NCBI RefSeq assembly: GCF_027625995.1
Contig: NZ_CP115396.1
Span: 806,001 to 870,000, forward strand
Origin: Hymenobacter yonginensis
GTDB taxonomy: Bacteria > Bacteroidota > Bacteroidia > Cytophagales > Hymenobacteraceae
Direction of reading: 5' to 3'
DNA length: 64,000 nt
The position numbers were made by a program, and so were the translations under genes. Shown piece by piece: positions 49,470 through 57,905 of the stretch (position 1 is its first letter; every line of letters begins with the position of its first letter). The notes below the pieces were generated by a model. It did not search any database. It had not been told where the DNA came from and saw nothing but the letters and a program-made list of their open reading frames with translations.

Positions 49470-50363
49470 ATGAAAGCGGTAATTCTGGCGGGAGGCTACG
49501 GCACCCGCATCAGCGAAGAAAGCGGGGTGCGCCCGAAGCCCATGGTGGAAATAGGTGGAAAACCTATTCTGTGGCACATTATGAAGATCTACGCGCATCA
49601 TGGCATCCGCGACTTCGTGATCTGCTGCGGCTACAAGGGCCACATGATCAAGCAGTACTTCTCCGACTACTTCCTGCACAACGCCGACGTGACGTTTCGG
49701 ATGGACCGCAACGAAATGCAGGTGCACCGCAACAACACCGAGCCCTGGAACGTGACGTTGGTGGATACCGGCCAGGAAACCATGACCGGCGGCCGCCTGC
49801 GCCGGGTGCGCGAGTACCTCGACGACAGCACGTTCTGCCTCACTTACGGCGACGGGGTAGGGGACGTGGACATCAGCGCGGCGGTGCGCTACCACCAGGA
49901 GCAGGGCGTGCTGGCCACGCTCACGGCCGTCCGGCAGCCGGGGCGCTTTGGCGTCTTCAACCTGCACGACAGCGCCGACCGAATCGAGAGCTTTACGGAG
50001 AAGCCTGAAGGCGGCGAAACGCCGTGGATCAATGGCGGCTTCTTTGTGCTGGAGCCCGGCGTGCTGGACTACATCGACGACGACAGCACGATGTGGGAAA
50101 AGGCGCCTATGGAGCGCCTGGCCCGCGAGAACCGGCTGGCCGCCTTCCGCCACACCGGGTTCTGGCAGCCCATGGACACGCTCCGCGACCGGAACATGCT
50201 GGAAGAACTCTGGCAGAAAAACGAGGCCAAGTGGAAAGTCTGGGACAATGCCGCGCCACCCGTGCCGGCGCCCGACCCCGTGCTGGCCGAAATAATGGCC
50301 GCCCCGGTGCAGGCCCCGCAGGGCCAGCGCGTGGCCGCGGCCACCATAATGCCCGCCAGCTAA
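49470..50363 (+). CDS. rfbF: Glucose-1-phosphate cytidylyltransferase
   Basis: A 297-residue nucleotidyltransferase. It starts MKAVILAGGYGTRISEESGV and continues RPKPMVEIGGKPILWHIMKI, the RfbF/AscA signature, with LTYGDGVGDVDISA as metal-binding region and the FTEKPEGGETPWINGGFFV block. The family makes CDP-glucose from glucose-1-phosphate and CTP. The C-terminus carries a Pro/Ala-rich tail of about 30 extra residues (PVPAPDPVLAEIM onwards). It leads the nucleotide-sugar set and tells that the product is probably CDP-linked. Its usual partner, CDP-glucose 4,6-dehydratase (RfbG), is not next to it nor elsewhere in the window. Confidence 0.95.
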   Translation: MKAVILAGGYGTRISEESGVRPKPMVEIGGKPILWHIMKIYAHHGIRDFVICCGYKGHMIKQYFSDYFLHNADVTFRMDRNEMQVHRNNTEPWNVTLVDTGQETMTGGRLRRVREYLDDSTFCLTYGDGVGDVDISAAVRYHQEQGVLATLTAVRQPGRFGVFNLHDSADRIESFTEKPEGGETPWINGGFFVLEPGVLDYIDDDSTMWEKAPMERLARENRLAAFRHTGFWQPMDTLRDRNMLEELWQKNEAKWKVWDNAAPPVPAPDPVLAEIMAAPVQAPQGQRVAAATIMPAS

Positions 50364-50491
50364 CCGCTGCCTACCTCCAATTCCCACCGTCTGCCCGCCG
50401 TCGGCTCCTACTCTACAGGGGCTGAAAGGGCTGCTCCTGGCCTCTTGAACGCTCTTTTCTGCTCTATTTCTCTTCCTCTGCACCTTCTGCA

Positions 50492-51574
50492 ATGAACCGC
50501 ATCCTCATCACCGGCAACATGGGCTACGTAGGGCCCGGCGTGGTACAGCACCTGCGCCGCCAGTTTCCCCAGGCGGAGCTGATTGGCTACGACATGGGTT
50601 TTTTTGCGCACTGCCTGACCGGCGCCACCCGGCTGCCGGAGTCGCGGCTGGACCGCCAGCTGTTTGGCGACGTGCGCGAGCTGCCTGCGGAGGTGCTGCA
50701 GGGCGTGGATGCCATTGTGCACCTGGCCGCCATCAGCAACGACCCCATGGGCCAGACCTACGAGGACGTCACCATGCAGGTAAACCACGAGGCCGGCATC
50801 CGGCTGGCGCGGCGGGCCAAAGTGGCCGGCGTGCGCGCCTTTGTGTTTGCCAGCTCCTGCAGCATCTACGGGGCCGGGGGCGAAGGTGCTAAAACCGAAA
50901 CCTCCGAAGTGAACCCCCTGACGGCCTACGCCCGCTCCAAGGTGCGCAGCGAGCAGGATTTGCGCCCGCTGGCCGACGACGACTTCTGCGTGACCTGCCT
51001 GCGGTTTGCCACGGCCTGCGGCTGGAGCGACCGGCTGCGGCTGGATCTGGTAGTCAACGACTTTGTGGCCGGGGCCGTGTCGGCGGGCACCATCAGCATC
51101 CTCAGCGACGGCACGCCCTGGCGCCCCCTGATTCATGTGCAGGACATGGCCCGGGCCATTGAGTGGGCCATCGGCCGCGAGGCCAGCCACGGCGGCGCCT
51201 TTCTGGCTATCAACACCGGGGCCGACAGCTGGAACTATCAGGTGCGCGACCTGGCCCAGGCCATTGCCGAGAGCATTCCGGGCACCGAAGTGAGCCTGAA
51301 CGCTGCCGCCCCGCCCGACAAACGCTCTTACCGCGTCGACTTCAGCCTCTACCGCGACATGGCGCCCGCCTACCAGCCCCAGCGGACGCTGCCCGACACC
51401 ATCGCCGAGCTCCGCGACGGCCTGCTGGCCATGAATTTCCGCGACGCCTCGTTCCGCACGTCCCAGCTGATGCGCCTGCGGGTGCTCACGGCCCTGCGCG
51501 ACTCCGGCGAGCTAACCGACGACCTCACCTGGGCGCTGCCAGTGGCGGTGCCTGGCCCCGCCATACTGGTCTGA
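50492..51574 (+). CDS. NAD-dependent SDR epimerase/reductase of the CDP-sugar set
   Basis: A 360-residue extended SDR enzyme. The nucleotide motif is TGNMGYVGPGVVQHL; the catalytic triad is the Ser in ASSCSIYGAGG, and the Tyr-Ala-Arg-Ser-Lys (YARSK) segment. LRFATACGWSDR, a sugar-nucleotide binding PWRPLIHVQDMARAI and the NTGADSWNYQVRDL block are typical. The SSCSIYG form is epimerase-like (compare SSSATVYG in GalE); 4,6-dehydratases have a TDE motif, absent here. It is therefore likely to act on CDP-sugar as C4-epimerase or 4-ketoreductase. It follows rfbF with a 128-bp gap. Confidence 0.88.
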   Translation: MNRILITGNMGYVGPGVVQHLRRQFPQAELIGYDMGFFAHCLTGATRLPESRLDRQLFGDVRELPAEVLQGVDAIVHLAAISNDPMGQTYEDVTMQVNHEAGIRLARRAKVAGVRAFVFASSCSIYGAGGEGAKTETSEVNPLTAYARSKVRSEQDLRPLADDDFCVTCLRFATACGWSDRLRLDLVVNDFVAGAVSAGTISILSDGTPWRPLIHVQDMARAIEWAIGREASHGGAFLAINTGADSWNYQVRDLAQAIAESIPGTEVSLNAAAPPDKRSYRVDFSLYRDMAPAYQPQRTLPDTIAELRDGLLAMNFRDASFRTSQLMRLRVLTALRDSGELTDDLTWALPVAVPGPAILV

Positions 51575-56507: not shown

Positions 56508-56519
56508 CACCTTGCCCGT

Positions 56520-57905
56520 ATGGCTTTGCTTTCTCACTCCGTACCGCTGCCCATGGAAACCGACTTTCTTTCTCCGCCACTTCAGGCCCAGGCTAGCCCC
56601 GGCTTTGCGGGCTCCCAGGCGCTGCAGGCCCGCTTTCACGCTGCCATTCCAGGGGGCGCGCACACCTACGCCAAAGGTGACGACCAGTTCCCAGAGCACA
56701 TGGCCCCGTACATCGCGCGGGGGGAGGGCTGCCGGGTCTGGGACGTGGATGGCAACGAGTTCATCGAGTTTGGGGCCGGGCTGCGCTCCGTTACGCTGGG
56801 CCACGCCTACGCCCCGGTGGTGGCTGCCGCCCGCCGGCAGCTTGAGCTGGGCGTGAACTTCGGCCGGCCGGCGGTGCTGGAGCTGGAAACCGCCGAAGAC
56901 TTCCTGGACTTCACCCAGGCCGGCGACATGGTGAAGTTTGCCAAAAACGGCTCCGATGCCACCAGCGCCGCCGTCAAGCTGGCCCGCGCCGCCACCGGCC
57001 GCGACCTGGTCGCCATCTGCCAGGACCACCCGTTCTTTTCCTGCGACGACTGGTTTATGGGCACCACGCCGCTGGCCGCCGGCATTCCGCGGGCGGTGCA
57101 GGCCCTCACCGTGGGCTTCCGCTACAACGACCTGGCCAGCGCCGAAGCCCTGTTTGCCGCGCACCCCGGCCAGATTGCCTGCCTGCTGCTGGAAGTGGAG
57201 AAAGACGTGCCGCCGGCGCCGGGCTTCCTGGCTGGCCTGCGCCGCCTCTGCGACCAGCACGGCGCGGTGCTCGTGTTCGATGAAATCATCACTGGCTTTC
57301 GCTGGCACAACCACGGGGCGCAGGGCTACCACGGCGTCCGGCCCGACCTGAGCACCTGGGGCAAGGCCCTAGCTAACGGCTTTAGCTTGGCTGCCCTCAC
57401 CGGGCGGCGTGAGCTGATGGAGCTGGGCGGGCTGCACCACGCGCAGGAACGGGTGTTTCTGCTTTCCACCACATACGGGGCCGAAACCCACGCCTTGGCT
57501 GCTGCCCGCGCCGTGATGCACGAATACCGCACCCAGCCCGTGGTAGACCACCTGTGGCAGGTGGGCCGGCAGTTGGCTGCCGGCCTGCAGCAGGCCGCCC
57601 ACGAGCAGGGCGTGGCCGCCCAGGTGCAGGCCGTGGGCCAGCCCTGCGGCCTCATCTACACCACCCGCGACGCCCACGGCCAGCACTCGGCCGCCCTGCG
57701 GACCCTGTTTCTGCAGGAAACCATGCGCCGGGGCCTGCTCATGCCGTCCCTGATTGTCAATTACTCGCATACGCCGGCCATCATCAACCAGGTGCTGGAG
57801 CGGCTGTATGAGGTGCTGGGCGTATACCGCCGGGCGCTGGAGGATGGCGTGGAGCATTATCTGGCAGGCGAGCCGGTGAAATCAGTGTACCGCTCCCGCA
57901 ACTAA
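56520..57905 (+). CDS. Class III PLP aminotransferase, glutamate-1-semialdehyde aminomutase-like
   Basis: A 461-residue PLP-dependent enzyme starting at 56520, 12 bp after the DUF4910 stop. Features are PGGAHTYAKGDDQFPEHM (typical of GSA-AM-like members), the GSDATSAAVKLARAATG phosphate-binding block, the PLP-ring Asp in LVFDEIITGFRW, and the Schiff-base Lys282 in TWGKALANGFSLAAL. Real HemL is elsewhere in most genomes; the copy in sugar clusters probably aminates a keto-sugar or a sugar-linked aldehyde. This is not the DegT/AHBA-type fold normally found in amino-sugar synthesis, which makes the amino-donor chemistry uncertain. Confidence 0.85.
   Translation: MALLSHSVPLPMETDFLSPPLQAQASPGFAGSQALQARFHAAIPGGAHTYAKGDDQFPEHMAPYIARGEGCRVWDVDGNEFIEFGAGLRSVTLGHAYAPVVAAARRQLELGVNFGRPAVLELETAEDFLDFTQAGDMVKFAKNGSDATSAAVKLARAATGRDLVAICQDHPFFSCDDWFMGTTPLAAGIPRAVQALTVGFRYNDLASAEALFAAHPGQIACLLLEVEKDVPPAPGFLAGLRRLCDQHGAVLVFDEIITGFRWHNHGAQGYHGVRPDLSTWGKALANGFSLAALTGRRELMELGGLHHAQERVFLLSTTYGAETHALAAARAVMHEYRTQPVVDHLWQVGRQLAAGLQQAAHEQGVAAQVQAVGQPCGLIYTTRDAHGQHSAALRTLFLQETMRRGLLMPSLIVNYSHTPAIINQVLERLYEVLGVYRRALEDGVEHYLAGEPVKSVYRSRN

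Follow-up and report, generated by a model that had tools for sequence, protein, structure and literature searches.

What can a bacterium make from cytidine diphosphate (CDP)-glucose when the operon that supplies it encodes no dehydratase? The question is raised by seven genes in a stretch of 64,000 nucleotides from Hymenobacter yonginensis (assembly GCF_027625995.1, contig NZ_CP115396.1, positions 806,001 to 870,000 of the forward strand), which we call the window and within which all coordinates below are counted. RfbF, RfbG, and RfbH form the route to 3,6-dideoxyhexoses; the window has RfbF in common with that route, but tblastn with a true RfbG query (from the Pontibacter locus L042) gave no match within its 64 kb at E 1e-4, in agreement with an initial annotation of this DNA that had reported no RfbG-like dehydratase there. 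We observe a conserved core, RfbF-SDR-RmlC-DRL (SDR, short-chain dehydrogenase/reductase), and a separable set consisting of a methyltransferase, a DUF4910 protein, and an aminotransferase. On balance, we favor the view that the core makes a CDP-3-C-(hydroxymethyl)-pentofuranose for exopolysaccharide; the product would be CDP-linked dihydrohydroxystreptose (DHHS) or a stereoisomer. In the list of open reading frames (ORFs), the seven genes follow one another in unbroken succession at 49470-57905 on the plus strand, and the ORF calls together with Pfam and NCBIfam profiles confirmed seven consecutive genes of the families initially given:

49470..50363, plus strand: RfbF, glucose-1-phosphate cytidylyltransferase, expected from family membership to make CDP-glucose (core; TIGR02623, 437.5 bits against a cut-off of 300.25)
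50492..51574, plus strand: SDR, proposed CDP-glucose C4-dehydrogenase of the Cj1427 type (core; PF01370, E 6e-35)
51624..52190, plus strand: RmlC-like protein, putative CDP-4-keto-sugar 3,5-epimerase (core; TIGR01221, 185.6 bits against a cut-off of 155.75)
52294..53637, plus strand: DRL/DXR-II-like oxidoreductase, proposed CDP-4-keto-sugar reductoisomerase (core; PF21135 DRL_cat, E 8e-49)
53684..55036, plus strand: C-methyltransferase (accessory; a family member by its PF08421 zinc domain and PF08484)
55149..56507, plus strand: metallopeptidase-like protein (accessory; Pfam DUF4910, DUF2172, and HTH_47; member of the DUF4910 family CA_C2195)
56520..57905, plus strand: class III GSA-type aminotransferase (accessory; NF004856, 661.9 bits against a cut-off of 486)

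Genome contigs were scanned with DRL, and the best 80 of 320 matches, from nine phyla, were kept; the neighborhood counts rest on tblastn of the fetched loci, so that absence means not within the fetched flanks. RmlC lies upstream of DRL at all 80 loci, at no more than 200 bp in 76 of them, and because this order holds throughout nine phyla the association cannot be ascribed to chance. An RfbF-like match is present at 74 of the 80 loci, those of L071 and L073 (25% identity) being really HddC-like. The oxidizing enzyme beside RmlC-DRL is exchangeable: it is an SDR at 66 loci (50 like the window SDR, 14 and 2 from two sister subfamilies), RfbG at 9, and neither at 5; in L072 and L079, two of these five, the contig ends partway through an SDR gene. 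At L067, neither SDR nor RfbG was found within 9 kb upstream. RfbG also occurs in 8 additional RmlC-DRL loci beyond the 80, and a nucleoside diphosphate (NDP)-sugar dehydrogenase (Ugd) with a UDP-glucuronate-decarboxylase-like SDR (Uxs-like) stands beside RmlC-DRL in L154, L155, L156, and L169; the Uxs-like SDR of L156 matches 2b69 (E 1.2e-44), and L155 was assigned by layout and sister position only. Since DRL stays with RmlC even where the ketone can come from RfbG or a decarboxylase, the window SDR is the likely C4 oxidant. Likewise, as the ketone can arise without a Cj1427-like SDR in the RfbG and Ugd/Uxs modules, DRL probably acts after it, which argues against the earlier suggestion that the oxidoreductase itself makes the keto sugar. 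Overall, a DRL match was found in 18 of 296 Bacteroidota genomes and in 27 of the 369 genomes from the class to which G015 belongs; the four weakest matches inspected (L160, L161, L170, and L171; 31-38% identity) had no RmlC match nearby.

How would the SDR yield a ketone? It carries the motifs SSCSIYG and YARSK, as had been noted, as well as the Ser-Tyr-Lys triad; its best Protein Data Bank match is Cj1427 (6vo6, 6vo8), and by this closest solved relative and the triad it would be of the Cj1427 type. Cj1427 oxidizes C4 of its own substrate, a GDP-heptose, to a 4-keto sugar without dehydration and turns 2-oxoglutarate into L-2-hydroxyglutarate, as described in PMC10680097. Given that the window SDR is closest to such an enzyme, no dehydratase is needed. 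Judging from homology and gene context, the SDR would oxidize C4 and retain the 6-hydroxyl, giving CDP-4-keto-glucose, and would probably regain its NAD via 2-oxoglutarate. A Cj1427-like enzyme should have genes resembling L-2-hydroxyglutarate oxidase as neighbors. Such genes occur in the flanks of 18 of 78 SDR-type modules, against 0 of the 23 modules of other types (p 0.011 by Fisher's test, uncorrected for kinship; L142, a duplicate of L059, was dropped), and, with Hymenobacter excluded, in those of 18 of 46 SDR-type modules (p 0.0003, likewise uncorrected). Three representatives of these genes scored 598, 325, and 264 bits against a cut-off of 299. RfbG over the cut-off was found in none of the 24 searched genomes with an SDR-type module (9 of them Hymenobacter), and SDR at E 1e-40 in none of the 11 searched RfbG-type genomes. 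The initial annotation had allowed for a distant dehydratase serving the pathway, against which these 24 relatives speak; they support its broader proposal of a CDP-sugar route that lacks a dehydratase and probably leads to a branched product.

The triad and the fold of the SDR are also those of GalE-type epimerases, and a CDP-glucose 2-epimerase is reportedly known. The SDR might accordingly do no more than epimerize CDP-glucose at C4 or C2, with DRL oxidizing or rearranging something else. We give this very little credence: the SDR exchanges with RfbG, the maker of a 4-keto sugar, it is associated with the L-2-hydroxyglutarate-oxidase-like genes, and RmlC works on 4-keto sugars.

The three routes to the ketone differ in the C5 substituent, which is CH2OH for SDR, CH3 for RfbG, and H for Ugd/Uxs, and a single DRL residue covaries with them. 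In a residue/route table of 107 rows, from which the four weak DRL matches named above were omitted, column 301 holds Leu in 77 of 78 SDR-type rows, the window among them, and Tyr in 15 of 17 RfbG-type and all 4 Ugd/Uxs-type rows. Among 447 DRL columns it has the highest mutual information with the route. It is also the only column with identical parallel changes in four out of four sister contrasts, which were picked after the tree had been seen. The DRL tree, from which 23 Hymenobacter rows were left out, requires the modules to have switched between the SDR and RfbG routes at least six times. Two predictions had been fixed beforehand: that Leu rows without a route have an SDR elsewhere in the genome, true for two of three, and that Tyr rows have a 4,6-dehydratase, true for one of five, the other four being Ugd/Uxs. 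Several rows weigh against the correlation. L148 (Met) and L153 (Leu) are the RfbG-type exceptions, L146 has Leu and its RfbG lies far away in the genome, L159 is of the SDR type yet has Tyr, and L067 has Tyr with neither route found.

What, then, might DRL do with the ketone? The protein had been labeled a SAF-type oxidoreductase. It is an oxidoreductase, but Pfam reported no separate SAF match at E 1e-3, and its real family is the DRL/DXR-II reductoisomerase superfamily (PF21135), with full-length homology to Brucella DXR-II reductoisomerase (3upl, 3upy). Enzymes of the DXR type rearrange an alpha-hydroxy ketone to a branched aldehyde, which they then reduce. In Brucella DXR-II, Lys193 and Thr229 anchor deoxyxylulose phosphate (DXP) (PMC3847144). 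Aligned with that enzyme, the window protein keeps Lys191 (K186) and has L188, I221, and T314 in place of Lys193, Thr229, and Arg320, which rules against DXR-II proper. L188 and I221 are nearly invariant among 81 DRL sequences, and because conserved residues of this kind replace the anchors, DXP is probably not the substrate of the family. In tests described in PMC3847144, four DLO proteins failed to replace DXR. The window enzyme thus shares with Brucella DXR-II its full-length homology and, as we propose, a rearrangement and reduction chemistry, but differs in these three positions and in the location of its gene in a nucleotide-sugar operon.

In the pathway that we favor, RmlC, whose family is evident, would epimerize C3/C5 of CDP-4-keto-glucose. 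DRL would then carry out a retro-aldol/aldol (ketol) rearrangement of the 4-keto sugar to a ring-contracted branched aldehyde and, at the expense of NAD(P)H, reduce the aldehyde group to hydroxymethyl. This step would parallel those of DXR/DRL on DXP and of UDP-apiose synthase on UDP-4-keto-xylose. According to PMC5324594, UDP-apiose/UDP-xylose synthase likewise combines retro-aldol/aldol ring contraction of a C4-oxidized NDP-sugar with reduction, but there one enzyme performs all steps, unlike in the window. By extension, RfbG in place of the SDR may lead to a 5-deoxy product of the dihydrostreptose type, Ugd plus decarboxylase to an apiose-like type, and heptose genes to a longer type. The methyltransferase, DUF4910 protein, and aminotransferase may act on the 4-keto intermediate or on a second sugar.

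Alternatively, DRL may be a plain C4-reductase, in which case C4 oxidation, 3,5-epimerization, and re-reduction would give an unbranched CDP-L-hexose. The Campylobacter route, as set out in PMC10680097, offers a precedent: Cj1427 gives a 4-keto sugar without dehydration and a C3/C5-epimerase follows, as proposed for the window, but the sugar is a GDP-heptose and a C4-reductase ends the route. Also, homoserine dehydrogenases, which perform hydride transfer only, are among the folds ranked next behind DRL. Moreover, PMC3847144 (2013) describes DLO members as being without known activity. We consider this alternative unlikely, if worth keeping in mind, and retain ring contraction by DRL as the preferred reading.

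The same logic has been proposed for DHHS and dihydrostreptose: C4 oxidation of NDP-glucose, 3,5-epimerization by RmlC, then ring contraction and reduction (PMC9095892). As described there, the DHHS route uses a TDP-sugar versus CDP in the window, and ring contraction is assigned to an assumed RmlD paralogue rather than to a DRL/DXR-II relative. It requires a C4 oxidase, an RmlC-type epimerase (CBU1838, demonstrated), and a streptose synthase-like enzyme, and that 2022 report lists the two activities other than CBU1838 as still to be identified. More tentatively than for the window product, we propose that the DRL-like proteins adjacent to RmlC form a new enzyme class, NDP-4-keto-sugar reductoisomerases, whose fold differs from the one seen in UDP-apiose synthase. 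A single RmlC-DRL cassette would ring-contract CDP-4-keto-glucose, CDP-4-keto-6-deoxyglucose, a 4-keto-pentose, or a 4-keto-heptose, and residue 301 would read the C5 substituent. On this view, the two DHHS activities that still lack an enzyme would be supplied by Coxiella burnetii DLO1, as the synthase, and by an SDR such as CBU1837, as the C4 oxidase. DLO1 is listed for that organism in PMC3847144, and PMC3539893 places the NAD-dependent epimerase CBU1837 near CBU1834. No locus tag could be matched to the DLO1 accession NP_820815.1, so that its gene is at most a possible neighbor of CBU1838, and the Coxiella connection is a lead, not a result.

Ring-contracted branched sugars are already known; what is possibly new is the enzyme class within the pathway. 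If the proposal is correct, the skeletal rearrangement of nucleotide sugars, for which apiose and streptose biosynthesis has other enzymes assigned or proposed, arose separately from the DXR-II fold. Relatives called uncharacterized in 2013 (PMC3847144) would gain a testable function, and the two DHHS steps would have candidate enzymes. The cassette is widespread, and many bacterial exopolysaccharides should then contain branched furanoses.

Do all seven genes serve one product? The initial annotation had read them as a pathway to a C-methyl, possibly amino, CDP-sugar whose keto group comes from the SAF-type oxidoreductase. The genes are indeed contiguous, and the three accessory genes follow the core at 15 of 31 Hymenobacter loci; every Hymenobacter locus with the methyltransferase also carries DUF4910 and the aminotransferase. 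L159 has methyltransferase and DUF4910 adjoining SDR and DRL, and L039 has a methyltransferase upstream of RfbF. However, the other 16 of the 31 loci, L013 for instance, have the core and none of the set within the fetched flanks. Furthermore, DUF4910 occurs in 10 of 296 Bacteroidota genomes, only 2 of which also have a DRL match, and at L193 a PIG-L gene, an additional cytidylyltransferase-like gene (RfbF2), and those for the aminotransferase and DUF4910 stand together in the absence of the core. In the remaining 8 DUF4910 regions examined, accessory genes are mostly absent. Because the set is absent beside many cores and parts of it occur without DRL, we divide the seven genes into a core and a set that can be separated from it. 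With DRL retained also where RfbG can provide the ketone, a single seven-gene pathway seems to us quite improbable, and the branch more likely stems from ring contraction by DRL than from C-methylation.

The methyltransferase may nonetheless draw on the same intermediate. In L184 the order is WecG-SDR-RmlC-methyltransferase-RfbF2-PIG-L-DUF4910, and DRL gave no match in that genome at E 1e-30. This juxtaposition of SDR, RmlC, and methyltransferase could be taken to favor the seven-gene pathway. Equally, since DRL is lacking, the methyltransferase may consume the same 4-keto sugar, as an alternative user of the SDR-RmlC product and perhaps a rival branch; in L184 this is possibly a C-methyl branch. 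The NovU/TylC3 label of the window methyltransferase comes from the initial annotation; what the sequence shows are the PF08421 and PF08484 domains, by which the protein counts as a NovU/TylC3-like C-methyltransferase. For DUF4910, Das et al. (2014; PMC4000134) describe neighborhoods with sugar epimerase, nucleotidyltransferase, methyltransferase, and glycosyltransferase genes, as in the window; unlike our reading, the available portion of their text mentions neither DRL nor ring contraction. In the window DUF4910 protein, H199, D205, and H336 were judged by eye to be possible Zn ligands.

Among the 15 Hymenobacter loci with the full set, RfbF2 is present in 5 and a PIG-L gene in 5. Hymenobacter RfbF2 is 36-39% identical to RfbF, and the L005 copy (12821-14307) scores 203.5 bits, below the TIGR02623 cut-off. 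RfbF2 forms a separate sugar module with a PIG-L-like gene, joined at some loci by a GSA-type aminotransferase or DUF4910 (L005, L193, L158, and L166).

Residues H66 and Y142 of the window RmlC correspond in the alignment to a His and a Tyr, which we take to be catalytic, in the RmlC of Salmonella (1dzr). RmlC column 125 holds Phe in 78 of 78 SDR-type rows and Tyr in 13 of 17 RfbG-type rows. A simple role as 6-hydroxyl sensor was rejected, since Salmonella RmlC, which has a 6-deoxy substrate, also has Phe. Two alphaproteobacterial modules lie among heptose genes and probably act on an NDP-heptose, which fits the relation of the SDR to Cj1427, itself an enzyme of GDP-heptose: in L073 (4878-11287), SDR-RmlC-DRL lies among GmhA-, HddC/GmhB-, and HddA-like genes, all below NCBIfam equivalog cut-offs, and in L071 among homologues of its GmhA- and HddC/GmhB-like genes. 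The RmlC proteins of L068, L071, and L073 have changes at otherwise nearly invariant positions, including H123N.

As for the surroundings of the operon, a description of its function was not found in the open-licence PMC literature, insofar as that text was available. Two genes lie directly upstream:

46862..48316, plus strand: sugar-phosphate transferase, probably starting the polysaccharide unit (context; PF02397 Bac_transf)
48341..49198, plus strand: WecG/TagA-type glycosyltransferase, a possible user of the sugar (PF03808)

A WecG match upstream of the module recurs at 26 of 31 Hymenobacter and 9 of 9 Pontibacter loci. Elsewhere in the window, on the minus strand, a 950-residue ORF (35743-38595) has two tandem D-Ala-D-Ala-ligase-like halves, for which Pfam reports two N-terminal stretches, and adjoins ORFs that, on visual inspection, look like phosphoglycerate kinase and a PASTA-like protein. 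A hybrid two-component sensor with a periplasmic sugar-binding domain (13772-16600, minus strand) lies near GH30 and TonB-receptor genes in what looks like a polysaccharide-utilization locus. Finally, a right-handed beta-helix protein with a Big_7 domain (60755-63076, minus strand) adjoins glycosyltransferases.

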